Shown here piece after piece: positions 8,079 to 62,878 of a DNA stretch of 64,000 bases. This DNA is from Meghimatium bilineatum. Lineage: Eukaryota; Mollusca; Gastropoda; Stylommatophora; Philomycidae. A model generated the notes under the pieces. It made no database searches, had not been told where the DNA came from, and worked only from the letters and a program-made list of their open reading frames with translations. The stretch lies in contig CM067299.1 in the NCBI GenBank assembly GCA_034231615.1, forward strand, positions 15,181,863 through 15,245,862, given 5' to 3'. The stretch's first letter is position 1. Every line of letters begins with the position of its first letter. The position numbers and the translations under genes were made by a program.

Positions 8079-8751
8079 AGTAAGATATACATCATGCGGT
8101 AAGATATACATCATGCGGTAAGATATACAGTCTGCATAAGATAACCAGTATCCAGTAAGATATACCTCATGCAGTAAGATATACATCGTGCAGTAAGATA
8201 TACATCGTGCGGTAAGATATACATCGTGCGGTAAGATATACATCATGCGGTAAGATATACATCATGCAGTAAGATATACATCATGCGGTAAGATATACAT
8301 CGTGCGGTAAGATATACAGTCTGCATAAGATAACCAGTATCCAGTAAGATATACATCGTGCAGTAAGATATACATCATGCGGTAAGATATACATCATGCG
8401 GTAAGATATACCTCATGCGGTAAGATATACATCATGCGGTAAGATATACATCGTGCAGTAAGATATACATCATGCGGTAAGATATACATCGTGCAGTAAG
8501 ATATACATCGTGCGGTAAGATATACATCGTGCGGTTAGATATACATCATGCGGTAAGATATACATCATGCGGTAAGATATACATCGTGCGGTAAGATATA
8601 CATCGTGCGGTAAGATATACATCATGCGGTAAGATATACATCGTGCGGTAAGATATACATCATGCGGTAAGATATACATCATGCGGTAAGATATACATCA
8701 TGCGGTAAGATATACCTCATGCAGTAAGATATACCTCATGCAGTAAGATAT
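8079..8751. repeat. 19-bp minisatellite, about 35 copies
   Basis: Unit GTAAGATATACATCRTGCG. Two blocks carry an inserted variant (CAGTCTGCATAAGATAACC and so on, about 8125 and 8317) spaced roughly 190 bp apart, which shows that segments of several units were copied together. Open frames across it are artefacts. Confidence 0.95.
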
Positions 8752-13130: not shown

Positions 13131-13302
13131 GTTGGTTGGAAAATACACGCTTATTTTGTTTGAGCAAATAAATGAGTCATTGAGGGAGTGAGTGAGTCAA
13201 TAGGTTTCGTGAGAGTCAGTGAATGAATCCATGAGATTAAGTGAATCAATGAGTGAGTGAATAATGTACTAGAATGTATTAACATTTAACTTGTTGTTTC
13301 AG

Positions 13303-13354
13303 GTTGTTGTCAGTGGTGTTGTTACAGATACTCGTCGCTCTTGCTGTTCCTTAC
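13303..13354 (+). CDS. FGF8/17/18-like: FGF8/17/18-like, signal-peptide exon
   Basis: A 52-bp exon. The acceptor is a pyrimidine-rich tract ending in CAG at 13300-13302 and the donor is a consensus GTAAGT at 13355. One leading base completes a codon begun in an upstream exon. Then 17 codons give LLSVVLLQILVALAVPY, the hydrophobic core of a signal peptide, ending in phase 0. Vertebrate FGF8 as I recall it also has a tiny exon for its hydrophobic leader, entered in phase 2 and left in phase 0. No in-frame ATG lies between the nearest upstream stop and the exon, so translation starts in an unseen exon. The exon is assigned to this gene by phase, strand and content. The 21-kb distance to the next exon leaves some doubt. 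Confidence 0.72.
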
Positions 13355-22277: not shown

Positions 22278-22387
22278 TAAAGGGTAAAGTGGAATAAACA
22301 GGGATAACCTGCCATTCTGTCTACGACTAAAATGTCGTTCTATAAACAAGATATATATTTGTCAATGCTATTTTGTTGACTGTGTAC

Positions 22388-22444
22388 TCTACTTCTTCGC
22401 GTGTTCTCAAACTCCTGCATATCTACAGGGCGTAGTCCAGAGAA
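22388..22444 (+). repeat. Repeat A, 5' part, interrupted by LINE-a
   Basis: CTACTTCTTCGCGTGTTCTC, AAACTCCTGCATATCTACAG, then the target sequence AGTCCAGAGAA (22434-22444). The remainder of the same copy resumes at 23132. Confidence 0.75.
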
Positions 22445-23131
22445 AACTCATATACTAGATTTTACGAGATCCAACGACAACATAGAAATTCACAATGTTC
22501 CATTATTAAAAGTCAACAATTTTACATATTTAGGCACCAATCTAGCATTGGATGGAGACTCATCAAAAGAAATTTTACACCGTATTGCCCTTGCAGCGGG
22601 TGCTTTCAATAAACTACGCAACATATGGACGTCAAACACACTAAGAAACACCACAAAACTCAAGTTATTTAACTCCAACATCATCCCTATTCTATCATAT
22701 GGATGCGAAAGTTGGAAAGCCATAAAAGCCACAGATAAAAGACTCGACTCCATTGAAAACAAATGCCTACGTACCATTCTGAACGTTAAGTGGAGTGACT
22801 TTAAATCTAACACTACTATAAGAGAGGAAAGCAAACAAACCTATATATCTTCCTTCATTAGACAAAGGCGTTGGACTTACATCGGCCATGTTCTCAGAAT
22901 GAACAGCCTAAGAATTCCCCAGCAATCACTATATTGGGTGCCACCTGGAGTAAGAAGAAGAGGGAGACCTAGAGAAACTCTACGAAGAACCATTAATAGA
23001 GAAGGCATGTCAATGAACCTAAACAACACGCAACAATTGAAAGACCTGGCAACACAAAGACAGAAATGGAAAGCTATGGTTTCTGCCCTATGCGCCGCCT
23101 ATGGCCCTGGAGGAACATAACATAACATAAC
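22445..23131 (+). mobile_element. LINE-a, 5'-truncated, frame intact, with target-site duplication
   Basis: A 687-bp insertion. Its frame is open to TAA at 23118 and encodes the region after the reverse transcriptase core: FTYLGTNLALDG, RIALAAGAFNKLRNIWTSNT, ILSYGCESW, RRWTYIGHVLRM, RRRGRPRETLRRTI, ending CAAYGPGGT. The 3' tail is three ATAAC units. An 11-bp duplication AGTCCAGAGAA flanks it. Intact frame plus perfect duplication suggest a recent insertion. The upstream part of the apparent ORF (22401-22444) is host repeat read in frame by chance. The LINE clade is not determined. Confidence 0.88.
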
Positions 23132-28350: not shown

Positions 28351-29222
28351 AACTGTGACTCTCACACTGCTGGTTAAAGTGTCTCAAATTGATTGTATAT
28401 CATATTGCCGGGTCTCACTGTGTATATATCATTAGTTAATATATATTGCATTCTGCGTAGAATGTATGATTTTGTGTGTGAACGTGTGTCACTCAAGCGT
28501 ATCACTATACAAAAGCACTCTCTAAAGCACACTCCACACTGAACTGATCTGATGCTCCGAATAAGACAATTATTCCTTAAATTTCATGAGGTCTTCCATC
28601 TGCTGCTGTTTGGTTGGCTAGCTGTCCCTACTTCCCTGTGAACACCACATGATTATCGCTGTTGTGAATGGCATTCTTTTTGTCCCACTTTTGCCCAGAA
28701 TTGCTTGTCAGGCCTCTCACTTCCCATTCCTATCCCATGATTTACTAGAGCACACAGTGGGATATTCCCATTTATTGGTGTGAGCGTAACGCTATGGGGT
28801 ACATCACAAACGTTAGAACAAATTCATTGGAAACAGTCGGAAGAAAGACAACAAGAGATCCGATTTTTGAATAGAAATACAGTTATGATAGCGTAGTAAC
28901 AAAACTAGCATAGAAAGAAAACAGCGTGGTAGCTGTAACATTAACCCGAAAAGGTATCATTACTGTTTATTGACGATTGTTTAATGTCTGCTGTACTCAC
29001 TGTGATTTTACATATTTCCGCGTGACTGCAAAAAAACGGAGTTTAAGTGAAATGAGACAAAATTTACTCTCGGAGATTTTGCCTGCACCGCGACGTGCTT
29101 ATATTTTTATTAGGCGTGAGCTTTGAAATAACCAAACTGGATTCACGGTTAAGGTTACTGTTACCTCATCACAATCGGTACAAAGCAAACTACGCAGAAC
29201 TAGTTTGTTACCAGCTATGGAT
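28351..29222. other. Spacer, no gene recognised
   Basis: No array or element recognised. Confidence 0.45.
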
Positions 29223-31789: not shown

Positions 31790-33143
31790 GTGAAGTAAAG
31801 TTTTCCTCTGACCACATCATTGAGGTATATTAGAGACTGTGGTGTGAGGTGAAGTAAAGTTTTCCTCTGACCACATCATTGAGGTATATTAGAGACTGTG
31901 GTTTGAGGTGAAGTAAAGTTTTCCTCTGACCACATATTGAGGTATATTAGAGACTGTGGTGTGAGGTGAAGTAAAGTTTTCCTCTGACCACATCATTGAG
32001 GTATATTAGAGACTGAGGTGTGAGGTGAAGTAAAGTTTTCCTCTTACCACATCATTGAGGTATATTAGAGACTGTGGTGTGAGGTGAAGTAAAGTTTTCC
32101 TCTGACCACATCATTGAGGTATATTAGAGACTGTGGTGTGAGGTGAAGTAAAGTTTTCCTCTGACCACATCATTGAGGTATATTAGAGAATGTGCTGTGA
32201 GGTGAAGTAAAGTTTTCCTCTGACCACATCATTGAGGTATATTAGAGACTGTGGTGTGAGGTGAAGTAAAGTTTTCCTCTGACCACATCATTGAGGTATA
32301 TTAGAGACTGTGGTGTGAGGTGAAGTAAAGTTTTCCTCTGACCACATCATTGAGGTATATTAGAGACTGAGGTGTGAGGTGAAGTAAAGTTTTCCTCTTA
32401 CCACATCATTGAGGTATATTAGAGACTGTGGTGTGAGGTGAAGTAAAGTTTTCCTCTGACCACATCATTGGGGTATATTAGAGACTGTGGTGTGAGGTGA
32501 AGTAAAGTTTTCCTCTGACCACATCATTGAGGTATATTAGAGACTGAGGTGTGAGGTGAAGTAAAGTTTTCCTCTGACCACATCATTGAGGTATATTAGA
32601 GACTGTGGTGTGAGGTGAAGTAAAGTTTTCCTCTGACCACATCATTGAGGTATATTAGAGACTGTGGTGTGAGGTGAAGTAAAGTTTTCCTCTGACCACA
32701 TCATTGAGGTATATTAGAGACTGAGGTGTGAGGTGAAGTAAAGTTTTCCTCTTACCACATCATTGAGGTATATTAGAGACTGTGGTGTGAGGTGAAGTAA
32801 AGTTTTCCTCTGACCACATCATTGGGGTATATTAGAGACTGTGGTGTGAGGTGAAGTAAAGTTTTCCTCTGACCACATCATTGAGGTATATTAGAGACTG
32901 TGGTGTGAGGTGAAGTAAAGTTTTCCTCTGACCACATCATTGAGGTATATTAGAGAATGTGCTGTGAGGTGAAGTAAAGTTTTCCTCTGACCACGTCATT
33001 GAGGTATATTAGAGACTGTGGTGTGAGGTGAAGTAAAGTTTTCCTCTGACCACATCATTGAGGTATATTAGAGAATGCAGTGTGAGGTGAAGTAAAGTTT
33101 TCCTCTGACCACATCATTGAGGTATATTAGAGAATGCGGTGTG
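31790..33143. repeat. 59-bp minisatellite, 23 copies, with higher-order structure
   Basis: Unit GTGAAGTAAAGTTTTCCTCT then GACCACATCATTGAGGTATA and TTAGAGACTGTGGTGTGAG. A diagnostic pair (a GACTGAGG copy followed by a CTCTTACC copy) recurs at 32011, 32365 and 32719, exactly 354 bp apart. Blocks of six units were therefore copied as one. A TTGGGGT variant follows the second and third pairs. Confidence 0.96.
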
Positions 33144-33149
33144 AACGGA

Positions 33150-34480: not shown

Positions 34481-34658
34481 GTTGGTGGTAGCTCAGCAGA
34501 ATCTCAATCAGGATTAGGTACATATAACAAAAACAATATTATAAGTGGCCCACCTTTAGTCAAAACCTACCAGCTGATCTCTCGCTGCAGTGACTTAAGC
34601 GTTCAGATGTTGTTCAGAAAGAAAGTTAACGCCCTCGGTAACAGGTATAGTCCATATG
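34481..34658 (+). CDS. FGF8/17/18-like: FGF8/17/18-like, exon with N-terminal part of the core
   Basis: A 178-bp exon, acceptor TTTCCAG at 34474-34480, donor GTAAGT at 34659. It encodes 59 residues plus one base, so it leaves in phase 1. The first 25 or so residues (VGGSSAESQSGLGTYN...) are a low-complexity mature N terminus. Residues 27-50 read PLVKTYQLISRCSDLSVQML and then FRKKVN, which aligns with the RTYQLYSRTSGKHVQV and KRINA blocks of vertebrate FGF8/17/18 (from memory of the family). This is the first beta strand of the beta-trefoil. There is no internal stop. It has no ATG near its start, so it is invisible to start-to-stop ORF calling. Confidence 0.9.
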
Positions 34659-39929: not shown

Positions 39930-40686
39930 TATAAGACCTACTAGCTAATGAGGGAAAAGCAAGCCTTCTTAATACATCATTTAAATATTCCTATGGTTTT
40001 CAATGGTCACTATTTTTCCCCCCATTTTCTCGTCATTCTGCAAACCCTTATCGATTATCTCTTACTTTCTATGTGCTGTGGGGAGGTTTCCCCGAGCTTT
40101 CTTTCATACACAGGAGACTTATCTTCCAGCTTTTGTTATAGCCAATTAAAATTAAGTAAATAGCCAAATTACAAACAAATTAAAATTGAGAATTATAGAA
40201 TGCTACATCTATTCCATATTAATGTATGGCTTAGAAACATGGACAGTAAATGAACAATTAGAAGACACAATAGATGCCTTTGAGATGTGGGTATATAGAA
40301 GAATAGGGAGAACATCATGGAAAGAGAAGAAAACAAATAAAGAGTTACTAAAAGCACTTAATATGAAGAAAGAACTACTAAGAGAAATAAAGATCAGGCA
40401 AATAAAATACTTTGGACACATTAAAAGACATGACACCTTATTGAAGACCTTACTTCAGGGTAAAGTCACAGGGAAGCGAGCAAGATGTAGGCAGAGATAC
40501 AAGTGGGAGAGTAACATCACACGATGGACAGGTTACAGTATAGCAAAGTGCACCACCAAGACAAGAGACAGGAGATGTTGGAGATTTGTTGCAGCCAACA
40601 TTCGTTGCGGAGACGGCACTTGATGATGATGATGAAATAGCCAAATTGTTCTTTTAAAAAAGCTTAATTTCCAATTCGGTCTTATA
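39930..40686. mobile_element. MITE-like element (TATAAGACC termini) split by a LINE
   Basis: The left end TATAAGACCTACTAGCTAAT pairs with the right end, whose reverse complement begins TATAAGACCGAATTGGAAAT. Internal ATGGTTTTCAATGG resembles the internal hairpin of the 11.0-kb copy. The LINE at 40171-40634 sits inside it. Without that LINE the element is about 290 bp, close to the 325-bp copy at 11033. Confidence 0.55.
40171..40634 (+). mobile_element. LINE-e, 5'-truncated, frame intact, with target-site duplication
   Basis: A 464-bp insertion with an open frame to TGA at 40621. It reads LMYGLETWTVNEQLEDTIDA, AFEMWVYRRIGRTSW, IRQIKYFGHIKRHDTLLKTL, and AANIRCGDGT. The tail is TGATGATGATGATG. 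The 13-bp sequence AAATAGCCAAATT occurs at 40158-40170 and again at 40635-40647 as a perfect target-site duplication. The insertion is probably recent. The protein segment is the region following the reverse transcriptase domain. Confidence 0.88.
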
Positions 40687-41095: not shown

Positions 41096-41097
41096 CA

Positions 41098-41440
41098 TTG
41101 TGCACTTTACTTTTTCATATTGTGTTCTACACTTTTTCATATTGTGTACTATACTTTTTCATATTGTGTACTATACTTTTTCATATTGTGTACTATACTT
41201 CTTCATATTGTGTACTATACTTCTTCATAGTGGGTACTATACTTCTTCATTGTGGGTACTATACTTCTTCATAGTGGGTACTATACTTCTTCATAGTGGG
41301 TACTATACTTCTTCATAGTGGGTACTATACTTCTTCATAGTGGGTACTATACTTCTTCATAGTGGGTACTATACTTCTTCATATTGTGTACTATACTTCT
41401 TCACATTGTGTACTATACTTCTTAACATTGTGTACTCTTC
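41098..41440. repeat. 22-bp minisatellite just upstream of FGF exon 3, about 15 copies
   Basis: Unit GTGGGTACTATACTTCTTCA+TA. Edge copies read TGTGTACTATACTTTTTCAT. In the centre, six copies present a pyrimidine-rich run followed by CATAG, with AG ending at 41230, 41274, 41296, 41318, 41340 and 41362. The array ends 36 bp before exon 3. Confidence 0.95.
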
Positions 41441-41476
41441 TTACTAATTATATGTTCTTATGTCTTCTACTTGCAG

Positions 41477-41580
41477 CACGGTTAAATTTCGTGTCAGACC
41501 CCAGTGGTACCATTAGGATCAAGAGCGATACGGTCAAAACATATCTCTGTTTTAGTCGGAATGGACGACTCATAAGTCGT
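41477..41580 (+). CDS. FGF8/17/18-like: FGF8/17/18-like, 104-bp core exon
   Basis: Exactly 104 bp, the size of the second core exon in many FGF genes. Acceptor TTGCAG at 41471-41476, donor GTAAGT at 41581. With the G carried from the preceding exon it reads A-RLNFVSDPSG, then TIRIKSDTVKTYLCFSRNGR and LISR, matching the FGF8 segment around ETDTFGS..VRV...YICMNKKGKLIAK. The Y-L-C-F and N-G-R-L positions are beta-trefoil landmarks. It enters in phase 1 and leaves in phase 0. Its flanks are unusual: a 22-bp minisatellite with acceptor-like units ends 36 bp upstream, and a 37-41-bp minisatellite starts at its donor. Inclusion of this exon may therefore depend on array sequence. Confidence 0.94.
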
Positions 41581-41779
41581 GTAAGTTCATCCATTGTTAA
41601 TGTGGTTTATGTTCATTGTAAGTTAAACAATTGTTGATGTGGTTTATGTTAATAGTAAATTAAACCATTGTTGATGTGGTTTATGTTCCTAATAATTAAG
41701 TTTATCCATTGTTGATGTGGTTTATGTTCCTAATAATTAAGTTTATCCATTGTTGATGTGGTTTATGTTCATAGTAAGT
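41581..41779. repeat. 37-41-bp minisatellite starting at the donor of FGF exon 3, 5 copies
   Basis: Copies share CCATTGTTGATGTGGTTTAT and begin with GTAAGTTCATC (41581, the true donor), GTAAGTTAAAC (41618), GTAAATTAAAC (41655), then two derived copies. A closing GTAAGTG lies at 41774. The repeat register coincides with the exon/intron boundary. Confidence 0.9.
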
Positions 41780-41830
41780 GACCATACACAAAAGTCTATT
41801 GCGCACGCATCATTTTTACACCATATTAGT

Positions 41831-42012
41831 GTAGCAAAGAATAACAACACTGTGATATTCCATGCCTGTCGTAAGAGGCAGCTAAGGAGCTTTCAAGGAT
41901 GGGATTAGTTGTCACATACTATACGGTCAAATGCGACCCAAAAACCATGCTGAAATTTGAAGTATCAGGGCAAGATCGCAGATAAGCTGTGAGCAATAGC
42001 ATAATCCATTCA
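41831..42012 (-). repeat. Repeat A copy, subtype A (left arm of inverted pair)
   Basis: GCAAAGAATAACAACACTGT, CTGTCGTAAGAGGCAGCTAA, ACCATGCTGAAATTTGAAGT, CGCAGATAAGCTGTGAGCAA. Confidence 0.7.
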
Positions 42013-42025
42013 CTTCTTCCGACTT

Positions 42026-42275
42026 ATTCTTTTGCGTTCATTCTCAAACTGCCTGCATGTTAGTAGAATGTAATCTAGAGAACGGAATGTGTTGTGTAAT
42101 AGTTTACAGCTTAGCTGTGATCTGTGCCCTGTGGACTGACATATCCAATATCAGCATTACCTATAGATGACATTGACCCCATACGGCATGTGATAGTCAA
42201 CTCCAACCCTCAATCCTTGCCAGGCGACTCTTACGACATGCTTGGCAGATAGTCCGTAGAAAAGGTTCAACTCTT
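42026..42275 (+). repeat. Repeat A copy, subtype A, near full length (right arm)
   Basis: TTGCGTTCATTCTCAAACTG, GTTTACAGCTTAGCTGTGAT, TATCCAATATCAGCATTACC, CTCTTACGACATGCTTGGCA. It faces the previous copy across about 13 bp. Confidence 0.75.
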
Positions 42276-42478
42276 CCCCTCCCCCTCCAGAAAATCTGAA
42301 TGATATTTAGTACTAGTAATTTTGCCAAAAGACTGATAAACAATAGCAAATTTTTCACAGAAATGTCTTTAAATTTCCCGCCAAATAGTGAAATTTACAC
42401 ACAAAAACGGACGAATGATAGTTCGGAAATTATTTTTTTTAAAGTAAAAACCCCCCTATTTAAAGGTAATGGTATCTA

Positions 42479-43085
42479 AGTAGAAACAGGAGAAAGAGTA
42501 CAACAGAAATATCTGCAGAGAAAGTAGAAACAGAAGGAAGAGTACAACAGAGATATCTGCAGATAAAGTAGAAACAGAAGGAAGAGTACAACAGAAATAT
42601 CTGCAGAGAAAGTAGAAACAGAAGGAAGAGTACAACAGAAATATCTGCAGAGAAAGTAGAAACAGAAGGAAGAGTACAACAGAGATATCTGCAGATAAAG
42701 TAGAAACAGAAGGAAGAGTACAACAGAGATATCTGCAGATAAAGTAGAAACAGAAGGAAGAGTACAACAGAAATATCTGCAGAGAAAGTAGAAACAGAAG
42801 GAAGAGTACAACAGAAATATCTGCAGAGAAAGTAGAAACAGAAGGAAGAGTACAACAGAAATATCTGCAGAGAAAGTAGAAACAGAAGGAAGAGTACAAC
42901 AGAAATATCTGCAGAGAAAGTAGAAACAGAAGGAAGAGTACAACAGAAATATCTGCAGAGAAAGTAGAAACAGAAGGAAGAGTACAACAGAAATATCTGC
43001 AGAGAAAGTAGAAACAGAAGGAAGAGTACAACAGAAATATCTGCAGATAAAGTAGAAACAGAAGGAAGAGTACAACAGAGATACG
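42479..43085. repeat. 44-bp minisatellite, about 14 copies
   Basis: Unit CAGAAGGAAGAGTACAACAG then AAATATCTGCAGAGAAAGTA and GAAA. It is purine-rich on the + strand, and a GAGATATCTGCAGATAAAG variant is interspersed. Long reverse-strand frames exist in all three phases and are artefacts. Confidence 0.95.
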
Positions 43086-43124
43086 AATGTCAGTATAAAT
43101 CAGTGAATATAACTGCACCAATGT

Positions 43125-43460
43125 GATTATCATCATCATTATGTGACGTGCCACCTGGCGTAGTCGATCATGGATCTCCACAGCTATCACTAGTACCATG
43201 TATTAGGCTCGTTGTTGACTTTATGATATGCCAGGTAGTTAAACTGTCCAATATTTTCTCACGTTGCCACCCTCTGTTTCTCTTTCCTTCGGTCTTGTCT
43301 GCTGTAACTATGTTCTCCAAACCTCATTGTCTCATAACGTGGCCAATAAATGAAGATTGTCTGTTTCTTAATTGACTGACCACTGTCTCGCATTTGACTC
43401 TTTCAGCACCTCCACATTATTTTATCTGGACGTCCATGGCATTCTCATCAATTTCTTAAA
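43125..43460 (-). mobile_element. LINE-b 3' end, inserted at a minisatellite
   Basis: Reading in reverse: CATCATCAT tail, then VAHHxxx, MTAY-like CTGGCGTAGTCGATCATGGA, GTTGCCACCCTCTG and ATAACGTGGCCAATAAATGA (FIGHVMRQ-like). These match the 62.3-kb copy. A 61-bp-array unit (43086-43124) precedes it and the main array follows, so it seems to have landed in the array. Confidence 0.6.
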
Positions 43461-44703
43461 TAAGTCAGTACAAATCAGTGAATATAGGTGAACCAATGTG
43501 ATAACTTTTAAAAAAAGAACAAGTCTATGTAAATCAGTGAATAGAGGTGAACCAATGTGATAGCTTTAAAAAAAGAACAAGTCTATGTAAATCAGTGAAT
43601 ATAGGTGAACCAATGTGATAGCTTTTAAGAAAAGAACAAGTCTATGTAAATCAGTGAATATAGGTGAACCAATGTGATAGCTTTTAAAAAAAGAACAAGT
43701 CTATGTAAATCAGTGAATATAGGTGAACCAATGTGATAGCTTTTAAAAAAAGAACAAGTCTATATAAATCAGTGAATATAGGTGAACCAATGTGATATTT
43801 AAAAAAAAAAAGAAATAAGTCAGTATAAATCAGTGAATATAGGTGAACCAATGTGATAGCTTTAAAATAAAAAAAGAAGTCAGTATAAATCAGTGAATAT
43901 AGGTGAACCAAAGTGATAGCATGTTTTAAAAAAAAAGAAGTCAGTATAAATCAGTGAATATAGGTGAACCAATGTGATAGCTTGTTTTTAAAAAAAAAGA
44001 AGTCAGTATAAATCAGTGAATATAGGTGAACCAATGTGATAGCTTGTTTAAAAAAAAAAAGAAGTCAGTATAAATCAGTGAATATAGGTGAACCAATGTG
44101 ATAGCTTGTTTAAAAAAAAAAAGAAGTCAGTATAAATCAGTGAATATAGGTGAACCAATGTGATAGCTTGTTTAAAAAAAAAAGAAGTCAGTATAAATCA
44201 GTGAATATAGGTGAACCAATGTGATAGCTTGTTTAAAAAAAAAGAAGAAGTCAGTATAAATCAGTGAATATAGGTGAACCCATGTGATAGCTTGTTTAAA
44301 AAAAAAAAAGAAGTCAGTATAAATCAGTGAATATAGGTGAACCAATGTGATAGCTTGTTTAAAAAAAAAAAGAAGTCAGTATAAATCAGTGAAAATAGGT
44401 GAACCAATGTGATAGCTTGTTTAAAAAAAAAAGAAGTCAGTATAAATCAGTGAATATAGGTGAACCAATGTGATAGCTTGTTTTAAAAAAAAAGAAGTCA
44501 GTATAAATCAGTGAATATAGGTGAACCAATGTGATAGCTTGTTTAAAAAAAAAAGAAGTCAGTATAAATCAGTGAATATAGGTGAACCAATGTGATAGCT
44601 TGTTTAAAAAAAAAAGAAGTCAGTATAAATCAGTGAATATAGGTGAACCAATGTGATAGCTTGTTTAAAAAAAAAAAGAAGTCAGTATAAATCAGTGAAT
44701 ACA
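43461..44703. repeat. 59-61-bp minisatellite with an A-run in each unit, about 21 copies
   Basis: Unit AGTCAGTATAAATCAGTGAA then TATAGGTGAACCAATGTGAT, AGCTTGTTT, and 7-12 A's. The first six or so copies are an older subtype (GAACAAGTCTATGTAAATCA, no TTGTTT). The rest are homogeneous except for A-run length. It lies in FGF intron 3. Confidence 0.95.
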
Positions 44704-45400
44704 GATGCATGAAGTTGATAGTTTTAAGTATGAAGAGAAATTGTTTCAGTGAGCAAACAAGCCTTGAATATATGAGCTGACGAAGAACTCTATTTATTCC
44801 GTCCAAACAATAATCGTTAAATATTTGAACGCGTACGTTCTGATATCAATTGAGGATCTGTCATGCTTTGCAAATAGATCTAACGTTCTATTTTCTGCAC
44901 ATTGTGCTCATTAAGCTTGAGGTGTTTCTACACTTTAAAAAAAAATATTTCTAGTTGTATTCTTGCTTTGTAAAAGTGCTGACTGTTAAAAAATAGCGGC
45001 CGGGTTAAGAAAATGGAAGGAGTACTTATAGAAGAAGTAGATATAGGATGGGGATGAAAATGATGACAGAGATAACGATAGAATCCCCGGAGAGTAGGAA
45101 TATGTCATGCTTGATCCCTCAACTAAGAGGGGGAAATTTTACATCCTACACCAGTTTGGGGGTTCTCACATTTTCTTTTATGACATTTTCTCTTATGAAG
45201 AACGTTTGAGAGCTTTGGAAAATGTCATCTGAATGTTGACTTGAATATGGTTGTAGAGAACAATACCAGGAGTATTAAACTTTTACTCCGAAGAGAACTG
45301 ACTGGAGGAAACTGACTGTGTGGTATATATCTTAGAATATCCATGACTGTGCTATCTCTCGTGAAGTTTCGAGGATTATGATATCTCTCTCAAAGATTGG
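44704..45400. other. Intron spacer, no gene recognised
   Basis: Nothing beyond short A-runs. Confidence 0.5.
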
Positions 45401-45640
45401 ATGGAACGTGTCTCCATTGTGTTGTTTGCTTTGGTGATGCAGTCACACTGTATCCTGTAAAACTCCTGATGTTTCGTTACCATTTATTTCCCTGTATAAA
45501 TGGGTATGTTAGTGTTACTATTAATAGGTTATTTTATCGACTGCTTTTGATAACACTAATGCCTATTTTTGTTCATTTTTATATTTGCCCTGCGTTACCC
45601 GAGCCATCCATTTCCTAGATATACTCTATTCTGTTCACTC
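45400..45640 (+). repeat. Dispersed repeat related to 31.1 kb
   Basis: GATAACACTAATGCCTATTT, TTTGCCCTGCGTTACCCGAG and CCATCCATTTCC match the second half of the 31060-31270 repeat. The CTGATGAAGG block is not preserved. Confidence 0.5.
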
Positions 45641-45834
45641 TAAGAATGAAGTGGGTCAGTGTTTCTGATTGGTTGTTGGACGCAGAACGCATTAATCGAT
45701 TGTTAAGTGCCCAATAATATTATTTTTACATTAATTTTAAAAAAAATGTATTTTAAATATTGTTTTTAATTGGTTTTAAATAATATTGTTTTTATGTATG
45801 GCCCAGATACATCAATAATGAAAAAAATCAAAAA

Positions 45835-46095
45835 CATCAACCAGCAGACAGATGCCTTTGAGATGTTAATATAGATAAAAATAGGGAATACTTCACTGAA
45901 AGAGAACAAAAAAGACGTGCTGACAACATTGTATTTTTAAAAAAAAGGAACAGTTAAAGAAAATCTAAATCAAACAAACAAACACAAATGTTGCATATTG
46001 AAAGGTATGACATCTTGTTGAAGACTTGACTTGAAGGTAGAGTTGAGGCGAACAAGATGTAGGCAGAAAAATGAAGGGATAAAAGTTCTAGTGCC
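45835..46095 (+). mobile_element. LINE-e fragment, heavily decayed
   Basis: CAGATGCCTTTGAGATG, AATAGGGAATACTTCACTGA, AAGGTATGACATCTTGTTGA and GGCGAACAAGATGTAGGCAG match the 40.2-kb copy in order. Many indels and stops. Confidence 0.6.
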
Positions 46096-46384
46096 GGGAA
46101 ACAATACTAAATTCTTTTTACTTTAAGAATAAAGTGGGTCAAAACACACCCCCATATTACTCCGCGACAACAGGTGATTGTTAAACAGTTGATGACATGT
46201 AAAGTATTATCAATGCATAATGAAATTGAAGTGATAGGATGTTATATCAAATCAAATCTTCTTTGTGGAACTGAGGCATGAACAGTAAAAAACAAACAAA
46301 CAAACAAACAAAAAAGTCAAAGTGAGCTTTAGGCTAATAAGATTTTTTTGGGATCAAGAATGATGAGCATTCCATAGACAGGGA

Positions 46385-46800
46385 CATTAATGTAGATGTG
46401 AAAAATTATGGCAAACATTATAAACAGACAGTCAAGATTTTAAAGCATTTGGTGATACGAGAAAGACTTGAACATTTAGCAACCACCGGAAAAATCAAGG
46501 TGAGAAGAGACAGAGGAATACAAATAGAGATGTTGCTGGGTGGGTTGTTACTTGGCACGATAAAATTCTACCAACTGAACTTATTGATAATACAAGAGAG
46601 AGTTTTTGAAGAAACATGACCACCTACGCTACTTGACATGTCACTCGATTGATCGTGACTGATTGATATAGAAGAAACATAACTGTATGCGTCTTTTGGC
46701 ATGGCACTTGCTTGATTGATAATAGAAGAAACATGACTGTCTACATCAGTCAGCGTGGCACTTGCTTGTTTGATATAGATTTTTAGAAGACATATGATCG
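46385..46800 (+). mobile_element. LINE-b 3' fragment with repeated end
   Basis: One frame reads ERLEHLATTGKIKVRRDRGI, like LENIITTGKIEG of the 62.3-kb copy. The end block (GAAACATGAC...GGCATGTCACTC with a TTGATTGAT tail) occurs about three more times by 46850. This suggests tandem duplication of the tail. Confidence 0.55.
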
Positions 46801-46849
46801 TCTACGCCACTCGGCATTGTACTTGATTTATTGATTGATATACGGAACT

Positions 46850-48010
46850 CTTTAGCATATTTACTCTTTGGTTAAATAATTTGCCTTCTGCTCAATGAAT
46901 CATGGGTCGATCTTGTGTCGTGACTTCTTGTTTGAAGATGTATTTTTTTTTCGAATATCTCTGAAAATTAAAGCTTCAAACTGCAGAATTACGTACTCTT
47001 GGCAGCTCACGTTTCTCGTCGTTTAGAGATCGCATTGCAGATCGGAATACTCGAGTGCAATGAAGTCTAATTCTCTACGCCTATTCATAGTTTACTATAG
47101 CAGCCTCTCTTTCTCTCTATTCTTTCTCTTCTCGGTTGGGTTAGAACTTCATTTTTATTACTTCTGCATGGTGTTGAATATCTAAGACTAACCAAGTCGT
47201 TTGTAAATTAAGAAGCATCTTCAATATCTGAAGAGAGTGTATACTCTTGATAACGATTCAACCAAGTATGACGTGATTTCTTTCACACGATGAGATTAAA
47301 AGCTGGCATCTTCTCGTGCATGCCAGCGACGGTTGACGGAACGTGAGAGTTAATTATTAACTGTCCCAAGTGCATCGCTATATTACTACTGGTTGAGCTC
47401 AAGTTTACCAATTCCAGTGCCACTTCAGCATAACCTCTTCCAGGTTTCTCATTTGTCAGTCAACTTGTAAACATATTGACACGTAGCAACGGTTCTAAAA
47501 CTGTTTAGTGGAAAATGGAATTTCTTGTACTAATAAAACATATAATAGTTGCACAACCACAAGGAAGTACAAGTTTGCGATTCTTGTTCCCAAGTCAGGT
47601 GGTGGATTGTTATTTTCATATTCAGACTGGTTTTTTCCTTCTTCTAGTATTACCCTTTTATGGGAAAATTCGTGGAGATTTTGCAAAATTCCGAATCTCG
47701 TGTGCAGAATTGACAAGAGATATCCGTTAATTGGAAGTGCACAAAAAGAAGCAGACAATATGTGGTATAGAAAATGATTTTAATAGTGTGTACTTAAAAA
47801 GTATATTAATAATAATAATAATAGTCGAAAAATAATAGCTAAACTAAACATCTTCATCCATTTAATGTCATAAAGTTGTCACATTGGAGTCGTCAGCAGT
47901 TAATGTCATAGAAATGTCACGTTATATCCATCTGCACAAAAAAGCCTAAGATACTTTGATATCCTCGTTCAAGACCGTCGTCCGTAGAAGACCTATATAC
48001 AGAATTATAC
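46850..48010. other. Intron spacer, no gene recognised
   Basis: Overlapping frames of 71-90 codons at 47495-47777 show no known domain. A short (AAT)n tract lies near 47808. Confidence 0.45.
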
Positions 48011-48017
48011 TACGACT

Positions 48018-48140
48018 TCATTCGTTACGTTTTTGATTATTATCGTGTTTTCGTTGGTCACTATTTATATACTCGGTGTCGCATGGCAAAAATAGCCAAG
48101 GCTGACCAACGAAAAGCAGGGAAATAATCAAAATCGGCTT
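48018..48140. mobile_element. MITE-like hairpin (9.2-kb family)
   Basis: The left arm TTTTGATTATTATCGTGTTT + TCGTTGGTC is mirrored by GACCAACGAAAAGCAGGGAA + ATAATCAAAA. The core TATTTATATACTCGGTGTCG matches the 9.2-kb copy. Confidence 0.6.
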
Positions 48141-48277
48141 TTCTGATCATGTTTACATTTTATGTACAAGGGCCTTTATGCTGAATACCTATCATGCTTT
48201 GGCCTTATTGTGAATGCTAACAAAGAAGACGCTGGCTTTTCCATGAAGTTACAAACTCGTATTCATACATAACTTTC

Positions 48278-48445
48278 TACAAGATCTATTGGCTAATACA
48301 TTTTTCTTAATAAATCATGTGACTATTGCCGTGAATTTTATTGATGACTATGATTATACTGTATACAACAGCCAATGAAAGTTAAGGGAATGTTCGAATG
48401 AGTCATTTTAGAAAACATCATTTCCCAATATCAAATAGGTCTTAT
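48278..48445. mobile_element. MITE-like element (TATAAGACC family), short copy
   Basis: The left end AAGATCTATTGGCTAATACA pairs with the right end CCAATATCAAATAGGTCTTA. It is about 168 bp, half the length of the 11.0-kb copy. Confidence 0.5.
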
Positions 48446-48540
48446 ATCGAGAAGGCCATTGTTCCATAGACCATACATTGCAAACACTTCTTGCATATTT
48501 TGGCATCTATTTATGCAACTCAGACATTGAAGAGTTCGTA

Positions 48541-48589
48541 TGTCTTTATATATATATATATAAAGACATATTATTCTGCATATACATTT

Positions 48590-48656
<67 letters not shown>

Positions 48657-48657
48657 T
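48541..48657. repeat. (TA)n/(TG)n microsatellites with palindrome
   Basis: TGTCTTTATATATATATATA... reads back as a 28-bp perfect palindrome at 48541-48568. It is followed by about 25 TA units (48592-48642) and a short TG run. Confidence 0.92.
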
Positions 48658-49172
48658 TGTCTTCTGCTTAATCTTTCAAATGTTATTTATCAGTGTCTAA
48701 AACAAATCGTGCCATGATAATTCCTTGATGTTACGAAATATAATCAAACCACTTCTTATTCTCCCCCCCCCCCTCCCAATTGCTCTTTACATGACAATCT
48801 TTCAAAATATATTATAAACCGGCATTATTTTGTTTCACACAAGCTTGAATATTGAAGTTATGGAGGCATACGAATGCGATCCATAGTTATACATTTAATC
48901 GAATATGTGCGGCATACGCAACAGTATATGTTAGGTCGCTGTACGTTCATCACAACTTAGTTTGTCCTTGTTGTTCGGTCCCTGCTGTTTAACATACACA
49001 GACAAACCATCAAAACGTGTTCAATGCACGCGGGTGTGTACTTATCCTGTCAAATATGTCTAGCCAAAAATGGAATGCCAAATTTTAGTTTTAGCATCTG
49101 TGAAATACACAAGACTCTACCTTTAAGTTGGCTTTTTTTATATCCCTATATTTTAGCAGTAATATGTTTGTT

Positions 49173-49413
49173 GTCGGGCCCGACAGTGAAGAAAAGAATA
49201 ACAATACTGCTACCTTCCATGCATGTCGTAAGAGGCGACTAATGAGATTGTGGGATATAGTTGCCTTCCTCATCTTATATATTGACAAATAGACCTAGAT
49301 ACTATGCTAAAGTCGGATCGTGAAGTCGCAAGGCGCAGAAATCACAGCCACATTCTGTTTTCCGAACTACATCCTATTAATCTTCAGGAGTTTAAGAGCA
49401 CGAACTATTACAA
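49173..49413 (-). repeat. Repeat A copy, subtype A, near full length
   Basis: GAAAAGAATAACAATACTGC, CATGCATGTCGTAAGAGGCG, ACTATGCTAAAGTCGGATCG, CGCAAGGCGCAGAAATCACA, CTTCAGGAGTTTAAGAGC. Confidence 0.75.
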
Positions 49414-49419
49414 GGAAGA

Positions 49420-50190
49420 CATAAATAGATATTTTAATATGTTTCGCGAGTCGGTAATGAATATTTAAGTACTTTAAAAAGCTAAACAAACAATTAATTT
49501 ATAAAGAAAATATGGGTAAAATCGTCCGTGTCAGTAATCTACAGAGTACGTCTGGGACGGTTATCGACACTACGTTCAAACCTAGCCACAGGCAGCTGTG
49601 CTTAAGAACTGTTGATAAAGCAATGAAAACCTACTTAAGTTATTTCTATTGCCTAGAAAATCACTACAGCCTAAATATTGATCTTGCGTTGATCTATATC
49701 CTGAATAGAAAATACAACTATTTTATATGTGCATAAACATGACAGAAATAACATACTCTGCAATGTGTCACACGTAGACAGGCAGAACAGTGTTGTGTGT
49801 CTACTGTCAGACTCTGGCATATTTGCAGCGCTAGCTATATATTTGGTGCATTTGAAACGATCAAAGAGATTTTTGATTCCAAAGTCAAATAAGATATACT
49901 ATAATGGAAAAAAGATAACGGTAATCATACCACAAAATTTCCATATGTCTGTATTGATATATTCACACACCTACTCGTCTACCTTGGCATATATTCAGGT
50001 AGCTGGTATATGAAAGAGTACGTGGCTGTGTTCGTTGTGTTGTTGTTTGCGTGTTTTGTTGGGTTCTTAATCTTTGGGAAACGTGTAACGATGTCTAAAA
50101 TTAAAAATAGAAGGTTCTCGTTTAGAACACGTGTCCCCCTATTTGATTATTTCCCTTGACTATGTTTATTAGTTTATGTTAAAATAGATA
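49420..50190. other. Intron spacer, no gene recognised
   Basis: Two frames (49512-49736 and 49729-50013) are not recognisable and have background codon use. Confidence 0.4.
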
Positions 50191-50194
50191 TTGG

Positions 50195-50375
50195 TATCGT
50201 ATCTTATTCACAACGTAGCCATCAACACAGAATGCTTGGGCAGTAGTGATTTTCTATGGAATATAAATACGTTCAGTAGTTTACCATTACTTTCTGAACC
50301 GTCCGGGTGCACGATTGCCTGTGGCGGGGATCAAACTCGGTACATTCGGATACAATCGGTTAAGAGAGAATAATG
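50195..50375 (-). repeat. tRNA-like SINE copy
   Basis: CACAACGTAGCCATCAACAC, ATATAAATACGTTCAGTAGT, CTTTCTGAACCG, GGCGGGGATCAAACTCGG (box B-like in reverse). Confidence 0.55.
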
Positions 50376-50471
50376 ACAGTGGGATTTTGAAATCAACGCT
50401 AGGGAGGACTATTATGAGTTTAGAATTCACTTTTAGAAAATATATTGGTTGTCGAAACCTTATTTGTGAGG

Positions 50472-50607
50472 GGTATCATATTGTTGTATAGCTATATATA
50501 GTTGTATCATATAGTTGTATGGCTATATATACTTGTATCATATAGTTGTATGGCTATATATTGTTGTATGATATAGTTGTATGGCTATATATACTTGTAT
50601 CATATAG
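50472..50607. repeat. 31-bp tandem repeat, 4 copies
   Basis: Unit CATATAGTTGTATGGCTATA then TATACTTGTAT. Confidence 0.88.
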
Positions 50608-50689
50608 AATTATCATTAATTAAAAGTAATGGTTATTTCAAAGAAATACACACCACCAAAATATGACGATCAATGACGCAAAATTAAAT

Positions 50690-51310
50690 CACGCGGATGA
50701 AGTCAAGTATTAGGAGCACCATCTTAATATCAGATGGCCAGTGCTCCAATGAGATCAAGAACGGGATAGCACAAGCCAAATCAAAATGTCAAAGCTCAAG
50801 GCACATTCTATGCAATGGAGTAATATCAATGTACATGAGAGTCCTTGTGCTGTGATGTTTTATTGAGATAACCTTATTTATGGAAGCGAAGCGTGGACCG
50901 TAAAAAAAATGTGCCGAAGATAAACTAAAGGCAACATAGATGTAGTTTTTAAGAAAAATGATGAAAATTCCACGGAGAAGTACTATAGAAGTATTATGGA
51001 AAACTAATGTAGAAGTTCTCAGAGATGCTGGAGTAAAACCATAAATTTTCCTCGCAAAATTAGAAAAATACAATCAAGATTTTTAGTGCATCGATGAGAA
51101 AAGTAAATATTGAAATTTAATAACCACCGGACAGATCAAAGGGAGAAGAGACAGAGGAAGACAAGGAGAGAAATTTCAGGATGGGTTGTCAATGTGGCAC
51201 AAGAAGATGACACTAATTAATCTTATTAACAACACAAAAGACAGAGAGCTGTGGAGAAGCATGATCTCCTACGCCACTCAGCATGGCACTTGATTGGTTG
51301 ATTTATTGAT
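50690..51310 (+). mobile_element. LINE-b 3' region, decayed
   Basis: Blocks AACCTTATTTATGGAAGCGA (LIYGSEA), GAAAATTCCACGGAG, AACTAATGTAGAAGTTCTCA (TNVEVL), TTTAATAACCACCGGACAGA (LITTGQI), then CTACGCCACTCAGCATGGCA with a TTGATTGGTTGATT tail. Many stops and shifts. Confidence 0.65.
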
Positions 51311-51319
51311 AGATTGATC

Positions 51320-52220
51320 GATCATATAGTTAAAAATGAAGAGCAAATGTTTGCTCCAGGTCAGAGAAATGAGAAGAGATTGTTATCATATAATTATTTA
51401 GATGAAAATTGTATCAATGTTACAAGAGGAAGAGAAATATTGGAAGAATGATGCTTCGAGAATATTTCTCAGAAACATAATTCGGATGATGTTTAATATC
51501 CGTAACGATGACCTAACCGTTATTGACAAGCACATTACTGGAGCAACGTTCGACTATGACATTTATGAGCCGCAAAGTGGGGATGCATATAGAAATAGAT
51601 CAATGAAGGCCTAGTATGGTAGAGCACTAAATGTCCATGTCAAACAATATCACGAGTATCTCGCATAAATATCATTTAAAAAATCATCTTCAACCGGTTC
51701 TCATATGCAAACATGGTGGACACATTATTGTAATAGTAGACACGCCTATGCCTAATCAACTCACATAATCTGTGTCTGAAGTGGTAAAACTTCTTTTCTC
51801 GAGACACAATAATTAGTATGCCGAGAAAGATCACAGGATTTCATTCGTGCATAAAAACTGGACATGATACACACATATAGAGTTATATATTATTGTATCT
51901 AACTCAATAAAGCGACATGGAGGAATGTATACACATGTCTCTGGCCAATGCATGTCTACTCGTCCGGTACAATGGCATTGACATCCACGATGAAAACAAT
52001 GAAATAATACGTCACTTTAGAATAAAAACAAATATAACATCATATGCAAAAATGGCATTTAATTCGTTACTTCCGTGTTTTTCCCACTGGTCGTCTACTT
52101 GTACTGTACCCATTACATCTTACAGATCATGTTTTAAATGTCATTGTGTTATGTTTTAGGAGCCATGGATATATATGTCTTTGTTGAACATTCGTATTAT
52201 TCTTTTCTTTTTATGTTTCT
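51320..52220. other. Intron spacer before FGF exon 4
   Basis: Open frames at 51402-51614 (70 codons) and 51917-52159 (80 codons) are unrecognised. The second ends 68 bp before the exon 4 acceptor and has no splice-compatible content. Confidence 0.4.
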
Positions 52221-52226
52221 TTTCAG

Positions 52227-52511
52227 GCCAACGGTGAGAGCCTGCAATGCAGGTTTAAAGAAGAAACGCACTACAACCACCTGAAGCTTCGATCTGTTGC
52301 CAATAAGAAATGGTACGTCGGATTTAATAAGCGTGGGAGAAAACTGAAGGGATACGCAGAGAAAGAATCATGGGGAAAAGAAAAATGTTTCATGTTCACA
52401 AAATTACAGTGGCGTCCAAGACCCAAAGTAAGACATCAGCGCAAGTTTGACAAATTGTCTATTGACTCTAATGGAATCAGTTTCACAGAATTGAGCCTAA
52501 GCAATCGGTGA
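52227..52511 (+). CDS. FGF8/17/18-like: FGF8/17/18-like, last coding exon
   Basis: Acceptor TTTTCAG ends at 52226. The frame stays open for 94 codons to TGA at 52509-52511. It contains the FGF signature region: ANGESLQC, then CRFKEETHYN, then KKWYVGFNKRGRKLKG, which parallels C.FTE......Y and GWYMAFTRKGRPRKG of FGF8. Compared with vertebrate FGF8 the loop after CRFKEE is about three residues shorter, and Q replaces the usual D/E/N/A before the signature Cys. The next segment, GKEKCFMFTKL, matches the HFMKRL strand. The 35-residue tail is basic (RPRPKVRHQRK) and then polar, consistent with heparan sulphate affinity. No N-glycosylation sequon is visible. Confidence 0.93.
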   Translation, partial: ANGESLQCRFKEETHYNHLKLRSVANKKWYVGFNKRGRKLKGYAEKESWGKEKCFMFTKLQWRPRPKVRHQRKFDKLSIDSNGISFTELSLSNR

Positions 52512-53759: not shown

Positions 53760-55488
53760 TCATCATGTCCCGACTGCAGCTTACTGCAACAAACATCATG
53801 TCTCGACTGTAGCTTACTGCAACAAACATCATGTCCCGACTGTAGCTTACTGCAACAAACATCATGTCCCGACTGTAGCTTACTGCAGCAAACATCATGT
53901 CCCGACTGTAGCTTACTGCAACAAACAACATCATGTCCCGACTGTAGCTTGCTGCAACAAACAACATCATATCTCGACAGTAGCTTAAAGCAATAAACAA
54001 CATCATACCTCGACTGTAGCTTGCTGCAACAAACAACATCATGTCCTGACTGTAGCTTACTGCAACAAACAACATCATGTCCCGACTGTAGCTTACTGCA
54101 ACAAACAACATCATGTCCCGACTGTAGCTTACTGCAACAAACAACATCATGTCCCGACTGTAGCTTGCTGCAACAGACATCATGTCCCGACTGTAGCTTG
54201 CTGCAACAAACAACATCATGTCCCGACTGTAGCTTACTGCAACAAACAACATCATGCACCGACTGTAGCTTACTGCAACAAACAACATCATGTCCCGACT
54301 GTAGCTTGCTGCAACAAACAACATCATATCTCGACAGTAGCTTAAAGCAACAAACAACATCATACCTCGACTGTAGCTTGCTGCAACAAACAACATCATG
54401 TCCTGACTGTAGCTTACTGCAACAAACAACATCATGTCCCGACTGTAGCTTACTGCAACAAACAACATCATGTCCCGACTGTAGCTTACTGCAACAAACA
54501 ACATCATGTCCCGACTGTAGCTTGCTGCAACAGACATCATGTCCCGACAGTAGCTTAAAGCAACAAACAACATCATACCTCGACTGTAGCTTGCTGCAAC
54601 AAACAACATCATGTCCTGACTGTAGCTTACTGCAACAAACAACATCATGTCCCGACTGTAGCTTACTGCAACAAACAACATCATGTCCCGACTGTAGCTT
54701 ACTGCAACACACAACATCATGTCCCGACTGTAGCTTGCTGCAACAGACATCATGTCCCGACTGTAGCTTGCTGCAACAAACAACATCATGTCCCGACTGT
54801 AGCTTACTGCAACAAACAACATCATGCACCGACTGTAGCTTACTGCAACAAACAACATCATGTCCCGACTGTAGCTTACTGCAACAAACAACATCATGTC
54901 CCGAATGTAGCTTACTGCAACAAACAACATCATGTCCCGACTGTAGCTTGCTGCAACAGACATCATGTCCCGACTGTAGCTTGCTGCAACAAACAACATC
55001 ATGTCCCGACTGTAGGTTACTGCAACAAACAAGATCATGTCCCGACTGTAGCTTACTGCAACAAACAACATCATGTCCCGACTGTAGCTTACTGCAACAA
55101 ACAACATCATGTCCCGAGTGTAGCTTGCTGCAACAAACAACATCATGTACTGACTGTAGCTTACTGCAACAAACAACATCATGCACCGACTGTAGCTTAC
55201 TGCAACAAACAACATCATGTCCCGACTGTAGCTTACTGCAACAAACAACATCATGTCCTGACTGTAGCTTACTGCAACAAACAACATCATGTCCCGACTG
55301 TAGCTTACTGCAACAAACAACATCTTGTCCCGACTGTAGCTTGCTGCAACAGACATCATGTCCCGACTGTAGCTTGCTGCAACAAACAACATCATGTCCC
55401 GACTGTAGGTTACTGCAACAAACAAGATCATGTCCCGACTGTAGCTTACTGCAACAAACAACATCATGTCCCGACTGTAGCTTACTGT
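53760..55488. repeat. 36/33-bp minisatellite, about 49 copies
   Basis: Unit ACATCATGTCCCGACTGTAG then CTTACTGCAACAAACA. A 33-bp form lacks one ACA. Both lengths are multiples of three, so one + frame (12-residue LLQQTTSCPDCS repeat, about 500 codons) and two − frames (SKLQSGHDVVCC and SYSRDMMLFVAV repeats) all stay open. A diagnostic trio (TCTCGACAG, CTTAAAGCAACAAA, TACCTCGACTG) recurs at about 53970, 54330 and 54545, showing copying of multi-unit blocks. Confidence 0.97.
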
Positions 55489-55517
55489 ATCAATCAACAC
55501 ATGATCATTTCACATCT

Positions 55518-57522: not shown

Positions 57523-57735
57523 CTGAAGGATATATGAATATACTGGAATAACTGAAGAATATATGGTTGTACTGGAATAATTGAAGGATATATGTTTATA
57601 CTGGAATAACTGAAGAATATATGGTTATACTGGAATAATTGAAGGATATATGGTTATACTGGAATAACTGAAGAATATATGGTTATACTGGAATAATTGA
57701 AGGATATATGTTTATACTGGAATAACTGAAGGTTA
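57523..57735. repeat. 29-bp minisatellite, 7 copies
   Basis: Unit GAAGGATATATGGTTATACT then GGAATAACT. GAAGAATATATGG copies alternate with GAAGGATATATG copies, giving a 58-bp higher-order period. Confidence 0.9.
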
Positions 57736-57739
57736 AAAT

Positions 57740-58105
57740 TCAAAACGAATTAGAGGCTACAGAAATGTGGTTTCTGAGAAGAATGATGAAAATACCATGG
57801 ACAGCCAAGAAAACTAATGCAGTGGTTCTCATTAATGCTGGCGTGAAAAGATCAATCATATCAAACATTAGGGGCAGACAGTCAAGGTGTCTAGGTCATG
57901 TGCTGAGAAGAACACAGCTTGAACATTTAATAACCACTGGAAGATCAAGGGGAGAAGAGACAGGGGACAACAAAGAGAAAAGTTACTAGATGTATTGTGG
58001 TATGGTAGAACCTCACCAACCGAGCTTATTGACAACACAAAAGGCAGAGAGTCGTGGAGAAACATGATCGCCTACGCCATCGGCATGGCACTTGATTGAT
58101 TGATT
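57740..58105 (+). mobile_element. LINE-b 3' end inserted in the 29-bp array
   Basis: Reads EATEMWFLRRMMKIPWTAKK, TNAVVLINAGVKRSIISNI, GRQSRCLGHVLRRTQLEHLI, TTGRSRGEETGDN and a stop, then ATCGCCTACGCCATCGGCAT and a TTGATTGATT tail. A further TGGTTATACTGGAATAACT unit of the array follows at about 58110. The target is repetitive, so the duplication length cannot be read. Confidence 0.75.
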
Positions 58106-62262: not shown

Positions 62263-62878
62263 TCTAGGTATTAATCACTAGGTAAATATCACCAATTCAA
62301 ATATCTAGGTACAATTATAACAGCAGATGGAAGAAGTTCAACAGAAATAATATGCAGAATAGGACAGGCAAAAACAACATTCAGAAAAATGAAAATTATA
62401 CTGTGTAATATGACCTTGTCATTAGAGGTGAGAAAGAGAGTTCTGCAGTGCTATATAACCCATATACTAACATATGGGTGCGAGTCTTGGACAATAAACA
62501 AACTGGAAAGTGTGAGATTGGAGGCAACAGAGATGTGGTTCTACAGAAGAATGCTGAGAATACCATGGACTGCCAGAAAAACTAATGTAGAGGTGTTAAA
62601 AGAGTTAAATGCGAAACGGACCTTAATCAACAATATAAGAAAAAGGCAATCTTCTTTTTTTGGCCACTTCATGAGACAGGCAGGTTTAGAGAACATAATC
62701 ACAACAGGCAAGATTGAAGGCACCACAGACAGAGAGCGACAACGTGAGAAATATTAGACAGTTTGACAACCTGGCACGGCAAAGAAACAACAACGACTTT
62801 GATACATAATACTTTGGACAGAGAGCTGTGGAGAGCCATGACCGCCTACGCCACCCGGCATGGCACCTGATGATGATG
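62263..62878 (+). mobile_element. LINE-b, 5'-truncated, inserted in the 38-bp array
   Basis: The frame reads FKYLGTIITADGRSSTEIIC, RIGQAKTTFRKMKII, VLQCYITHILTYGCESWTIN, ATEMWFYRRMLRIPWTARKT, FFGHFMRQAGLENIITTGKI and EGTTDRERQREKY, stopping at 62755. A TACGCCACCCGGCATGGCAC end and a TGATGATG tail follow. ATGTATAAATA (62252-62262) recurs at 62879-62889, an apparent 11-bp target-site duplication partly shared with the tail. It is among the best-preserved LINE-b copies. Confidence 0.82.

Follow-up and report, generated by a model that had tools for sequence, protein, structure and literature searches.

In a window of 64,000 nt (i.e., the whole stretch of DNA analyzed), exon 3 of a putative FGF gene is flanked by two minisatellites, one of which begins at the first base of the following intron, raising the question of whether these repeats simply neighbor the exon or have grown out of its splice signals and affect how it is spliced. 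Our best explanation, which we hold with roughly even confidence, is that both minisatellites have grown from or against the splice signals of exon 3, with probable minor retention of a single repeat unit through a donor at 41618. The structural point that we find most interesting is that the unit at the edge of one minisatellite supplies the donor, while the edge unit of the other possibly contains the branch point. All statements made here refer to one locus and one sequence.

The FGF gene and its repeat-rich surroundings

The GC content of the window varied from 32% to 42% (in 2-kb steps), and the sequence resembles animal nuclear DNA. TRF returned 77 rows, revealing a window packed with minisatellites, and the 43 merged arrays with a score of at least 90 covered 22% of it (19% inside the FGF gene versus 27% outside), indicating that minisatellites often arise in this DNA. 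One of the repeats, a 19-bp array at 8080–8751 (35 copies, with units starting with GTAAG), adjoins none of the recognized exons and offers a natural control for decoy-donor arrays; another, a 59-bp array at 31790–33144, lies upstream of exon 2 (23 copies with 97% matches by TRF). A search of Rfam yielded no matches at the gathering score, and the 22-bp unit of the array upstream of exon 3 had no matches among viral contigs.

Four exons of the gene were recognized on the (+) strand, and their phases agree at every junction. The exon at 13303–13354, predicted to encode the core of a signal peptide (LLSVVLLQILVALAVPY), was placed by its layout (an AG ending at 13302, a donor GTAAGT at 13355, and phase 0 into the next exon), without a homology match of its own. 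This exon is tiny, the next exon lies ~21 kb downstream, and a weak 22-bp repeat (13209–13257; TRF score of 56) stops 45 bp before it. Exon 2 (34481–34658; phase 0 to phase 1, donor ATG/GTAAGT) was detected when the window was searched by tblastn with a fragment of FGF8 (E = 5e-6). Exon 3 (41477–41580; 104 bp, phase 1 to phase 0) reads (G)CA RLNFVSDPSGTIRIKSDTVKTYLCFSRNGRLISR and, taken alone, matched the Pfam FGF family PF00167 with E = 4.4e-4 and 20.7 bits, under the cut-off of 24; exons 3 and 4 together scored 56.8 bits against the same cut-off (E = 3e-15), so that the pair qualifies as an FGF domain. The last exon (exon 4; 52227–52511), with its TGA at 52509–52511 and an AATAAA soon after, matched Pfam FGF as well (E = 2.7e-5 and 24.6 bits, scored on the open stretch 52188–52508), and its acceptor ranks by PWM in the top 0.05% of AGs in the window.

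Comparison of the spliced protein with FGFs of known structure gave E-values of 9e-19 for FGF8b (2fdb), 1e-17 for FGF18 (4cjm), and 1e-9 for the best FGF1. As judged by these similarities, the gene is of the FGF8/17/18 type, with the FGF8 subfamily nearest among the structurally solved FGFs; the accessible part of a review (PMC3420111) describes as unclear where some lophotrochozoan FGFs belong. The gene was recovered from the signal-peptide exon to the stop, and an ATG-bearing exon 1 was not found in the window (one poor candidate lies at 28778); thus, the exon that an earlier note on this DNA called exon 3, a name that we keep, may be the fourth exon. The positions given in that note for the exon, its acceptor AG (ending at 41476), and its donor (GTAAGT at 41581) all agree with the sequence.

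The donor-side array and its predicted products

Downstream of exon 3, TRF and unit alignment delimit a minisatellite at 41581–41779 on the (+) strand, composed of five 37- to 41-bp units plus the GTAAGT of a sixth. As had been claimed, this array begins exactly at the donor; specifically, the true donor makes up its initial 6 nt, and the canonical GT at 41581 is assigned as such by homology and reading frame. In order, the units start with GTAAGT, GTAAGT, GTAAAT, TTAAGT, TTAAGT, and GTAAGT. Three of the six unit starts therefore lack GTAAGT (GTAAAT at 41655 and TTAAGT at 41696 and 41737) while the unit core is nearly invariant, which counts against our best explanation. The 37 nt that follow the array displayed no homology to it (356 of 1,000 shuffles reached the observed likeness).

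The two further copies of GTAAGT to which the earlier note had drawn attention are present at 41618–41623 (ATT/GTAAGTTAA, +37) and 41774–41779 (ATA/GTAAGTGAC, +193). When donors were scored with PWM tables and a U1 5′ end that were not fitted to the source species, the true donor (CGT/GTAAGTT) reached a PWM of 2.84 and a U1 pairing energy of −5.0 kcal/mol. In comparison, the first decoy donor reached 1.33 and −4.9 kcal/mol and the second 1.62 and −5.1 kcal/mol, i.e., U1 pairing is about equal and the PWM somewhat lower. The presence of two more exact GTAAGT copies within 193 nt has a probability of about 0.001 (at the (+)-strand rate of the window, with these sites left out), and the copies of the donor hexamer are there because of the repeat. 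By strength, such sites are ordinary: 193 nt of the window would on average contain 0.74 GTs as good as the decoys by both PWM and U1, and two of them would occur with a probability of about 0.17. Further evidence against our best explanation comes from the intron as a whole, where 10 GTs in 41581–52226 (the true donor included) score at least as high as the true donor. At the gene's other two donors, the next 200 nt contained no GT with a PWM of at least 0 and one GT each that passed the U1 threshold (−5.0 and −5.1), and the 104 nt before these donors contained some GTs with a PWM of at least 0, e.g., the GT at 34645 within exon 2 (0.8 and −7.2).

According to translation, use of the donor at 41618 would yield ...NGRLISR-VSSSIVNVVYVHCQR, i.e., a short FGF without exon 4 that ends at an out-of-frame TGA in the last exon, while use of the donor at 41774 would lead to a stop at the in-frame TGA at 41635–41637. 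Both predicted products bear out the earlier proposal that decoy-donor use truncates the FGF; the in-frame TGA at 41635, which that proposal linked to the first decoy, is present but lies past that donor and is relevant to the 41774 decoy only. Under the usual rule for nonsense-mediated decay, the 41618 product would escape decay and the 41774 product would not; with its stop in the last exon, the former is not expected to be subject to mRNA decay. We propose that 41618 may act as a second donor, giving rise to minor 37-nt retention of one unit, and that this would be the most likely consequence of the arrangement because its U1 pairing is nearly equal to that of the true donor and because a human repeat in ABCA7 behaves in this manner. 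By the same analogy, decoy donors at both 41618 and 41774 seem plausible.

The donor half of the locus is, by analogy, the ABCA7 layout in an FGF gene, for which the human precedent is strong. As described in the accessible part of PMC5954066, the VNTR in intron 18 of human ABCA7 consists of 25-bp units, the first two bases of which are the canonical donor GT of exon 18. The donor located one 25-bp unit further on is used and gives an out-of-frame transcript with a premature stop that is subject to decay; skipping of exon 19 varied with VNTR length, whereas retention of one unit did not (PMC5954066; review, PMC6660495, also in part). Both arrays thus open with a canonical donor GT, and in both the next unit carries an out-of-frame donor sequence (here GTAAGT at 41618, +37, with U1 pairing of −4.9), such that the addition of one unit (25 bp in ABCA7 and a predicted 37 bp in the FGF) leads to a premature stop. 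The two systems differ in several respects in the material available on ABCA7. The size of ABCA7 alleles lies between about 12 and about 427 units, with polymorphism demonstrated, whereas the FGF array has about five units in one sequence; the ABCA7 isoforms were detected by cDNA PCR, whereas those of the FGF are predicted from the sequence; ABCA7 transcripts with a retained unit are subject to decay, whereas the predicted FGF stop falls in the last exon; and an upstream array is present in the FGF gene, with none described for ABCA7 in that part of the source.

Two other systems bear a partial likeness. In C. elegans, CeRep25B and other intronic minisatellites are statistically linked to alternative exons (PMC4039745), which shares with the FGF gene the presence of intronic minisatellites at an invertebrate exon, although no array with a donor as its first unit is described in the part of that report available. 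In human duplicated genes, internal tandem repeats activate cryptic splice sites (PMC2812944, in part), and both cases involve a tandem-repeat change linked to the creation of splice sites; however, those repeats are exonic and accompany intron gain, while the FGF array begins at an existing donor.

The 22-bp array upstream of the acceptor

The upstream minisatellite occupies 41097–41448 on the (+) strand as 16 in-phase units of 22 bp, according to TRF (15.5 copies, to 41436) and a listing of the units. Its middle is homogeneous and its edges are degenerate: the CATAG form is absent from units 1–6 and 14–16, while GTGGGT occurs in units 7–13, six of which also contain the AG. The ends of units 13–16 (TTCAT, TTCAC, TTAAC, and CTAAT) step towards a branch-point sequence, and the degenerate unit 16 (41427–41448) includes TACTAAT. 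Unit 16 is identical to the consensus at 17 of 22 positions, a likeness reached in register by 11 of 20,000 shuffles; by local alignment, the likeness is modest (reached by 15 of 1,000 shuffles), which weakens our best explanation. The last 28 nt before exon 3 displayed no homology to the array (965 of 1,000 shuffles reached the observed likeness), indicating that the array does not extend to the acceptor as a further unit. The idea that the acceptor or the exon end represents further array units was rejected, since neither these 28 nt nor the exon end (708 of 1,000 shuffles) is homologous to the array.

Six CATAGs of this array, with AGs ending at 41230, 41274, 41296, 41318, 41340, and 41362, were present as reported in the earlier note, which regarded them as decoy acceptors. 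Acceptors and branch points were scored with a simple PWM and with consensus weights, respectively, neither of which was fitted to the source species. The true acceptor AG, ending at 41476, scored 5.97 bits and ranked in the top 0.34% of the 3,794 AGs in the window, compared with −0.76 bits (top 11.4%) for five of the array AGs and 0.77 bits (top 6.6%) for the sixth, a strength not comparable to that of the real acceptor. The best branch-point candidate in a motif scan was TACTAAT at 41442–41448 (+ strand), whose putative branch-point A at 41447 lies 29 nt before the G of the acceptor AG. By motif only, candidates other than the best lie 16, 33, 51, and 73 nt from the AG, the next one being TCTTAAC at 41425; two of them (41443 and 41460) lie outside the array or at its edge, a point against our best explanation. 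All six CATAGs are located upstream of A41447 and would be usable only with weaker branch candidates within the array, e.g., a TTCAT that lies 25 nt upstream in the unit before.

The array is also poor in AGs: it has 6, whereas 340-bp stretches of the window contain 20.2 on average and 1.6% of them have as few; such poverty does not set this array apart from others (11 of 52 array-strands fell in the lowest 5% for AG), which again speaks against our best explanation. Given the weak scores, the position of the branch-point candidate, and the AG-poor array, we rejected the decoy acceptors as genuine competitors. At the level of translation, use of the AG ending at 41362 would lengthen the protein by 38 codons with the frame kept open, and the other five would run into stops.

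No AG lies between those ending at 41362 and 41476, which leaves an AG-free zone of 112 nt (41363–41474, + strand) before the true AG. The corresponding AG-to-AG distance is 114 nt versus 30, 41, and 64 nt at the gene's other three acceptors, and only 15 of 3,795 such distances in the window are 114 nt or more. Because of the weak array AGs, the AG-poor array, and this zone, the term lead-in suits the 22-bp array better than the term decoy; i.e., it may provide an AG-poor, pyrimidine-rich approach to the acceptor, not competing acceptors. With at least 100 nt free of AG, exon 3 resembles the human exons whose AG exclusion zone is large; in the accessible part of PMC1431707, 68 of 235 exons with zones of at least 100 nt were cassette exons, more than the 47 expected. 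Unlike the human exons that combine an AG exclusion zone with a distant branch point in that source, the FGF zone consists mostly of array units, and its best branch-point candidate lies at an ordinary 29 nt.

Chance arrangement and other explanations

Under our preferred explanation, tandem duplication of intron sequence beside each splice site would have generated the arrays, and selection would keep the copy at the splicing edge while the remaining copies drift, such that the branch point would reside in the last, degenerate unit upstream and the donor would be the first unit downstream. Array edges match splice signals on both sides (a candidate branch point upstream and the donor downstream), and the tightness of the arrangement was gauged by rotating the four recognized exons against the arrays with a score of at least 90. 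Specifically, an exon touched an array in 0.47% of 64,000 rotations, arrays lay within 40 bp on both sides of some exon in 0.35% of 64,000, and both held for one exon in 9 of 64,000, with the limits set post hoc and the observed case counted in. The gap between the TRF-defined end of the 22-bp array and exon 3 is 40 nt, just within the 40-bp limit.

Coincidence without consequence, in which neutral minisatellites flank exon 3 in repeat-rich DNA and only the sites at 41476 and 41581 are used, is a serious, though tentative, possibility. It accords with the 22% of the window covered by the 43 arrays, with the loss of half of the donor copies in the downstream array, with the other three recognized FGF exons not being sandwiched in this way, and with donor-like units elsewhere, as GTRAG occurs 33 times on the (+) strand within the 19-bp array at 8080–8751 and 21 times within the 59-bp array at 31790–33144. 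However, few rotations combine an exact register of donor and array with another array no more than 40 bp away (the 9 noted above, post hoc), and the nearest decoy donor about equals the true donor in U1 pairing.

It appears quite improbable that the arrays control the inclusion of exon 3 by serving as multivalent binding platforms for splicing factors. Motif counts first seemed to favor such platforms: among seven patterns tried, the upstream array contained 21 copies of CUUC and 11 of UCUU, which we take to be PTB-like (means, 1.3 and 1.9), as well as 14 copies of YCAY, presumably Nova-like (mean, 5.5), and the downstream array, whose GU-rich sequence we assume to be CELF-like, contained 15 copies of TGTK versus a window mean of 3.0. 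When both strands were considered in 200-bp windows, however, only CUUC (upstream) and TGTK (downstream) remained in the top 1%. Of 52 array-strands of at least 150 bp, 9 ranked that high for one among five motifs, seven of these belonging to other arrays. A splicing-factor platform was therefore rejected as evidence, since motif extremes are found in other arrays too.

The model of the earlier note, in which decoy acceptors and donors compete and the amount of full-length FGF is set by array length, is in our estimation very unlikely. Its donor half is credible, with truncation of the FGF upon use, but its acceptor half fails because the sites are weak and lie upstream of the leading branch-point candidate and because the array is AG-poor. 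In addition, a gain of CATAG units in the interior of the array would presumably not alter the final 112 nt, and retention of an ABCA7 unit is independent of VNTR length in the accessible part of PMC5954066. Pairing of the two arrays to loop out exon 3 (by skipping or as circular RNA) is extremely improbable and was rejected, since the predicted duplex of −77.7 kcal/mol, reached by 4 of 200 dinucleotide shuffles (−64.2 ± 5.6), was reached by 33 of 150 shuffles that kept the repeated unit. Moreover, among 43 pairs of large arrays lying near each other, the exon 3 pair being one of the 43, at least 12 are stronger.

Regarding our preferred explanation of arrays grown from splice signals, no published report of arrays on both sides of an exon in this arrangement was found among the matches listed, a weak negative, and the donor-including VNTR found in print belongs to a human disease gene, ABCA7. 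If true, the locus would represent an invertebrate FGF-ligand case in which a second array reaches the branch-point region, which would suggest that splice signals can seed minisatellites, and a simple minigene could be used to test how copy number affects the choice of splice site. A further extension, that the splice signals of this developmental ligand would be rewritten again and again by array turnover and that a steady, minor short FGF escaping decay might bind without activating, we consider unlikely. If no decoy is used, the locus would offer a clean test of splicing fidelity despite a donor copy of near-equal U1 pairing 37 nt away.

Other repeats and reading frames in the window were also recorded. 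ORF fragments at 22380–23117, 40156–40620, 57726–57986, and 62275–62754 resemble what we take to be tails of non-LTR reverse transcriptases; Pfam placed DUF6451 above the cut-off in the first of these and nothing above the cut-off in the other three. Lastly, a 36-bp array at 53761–55503 (49 copies by TRF, with a 213-bp period also fitting) keeps frames open for hundreds of codons on both strands.
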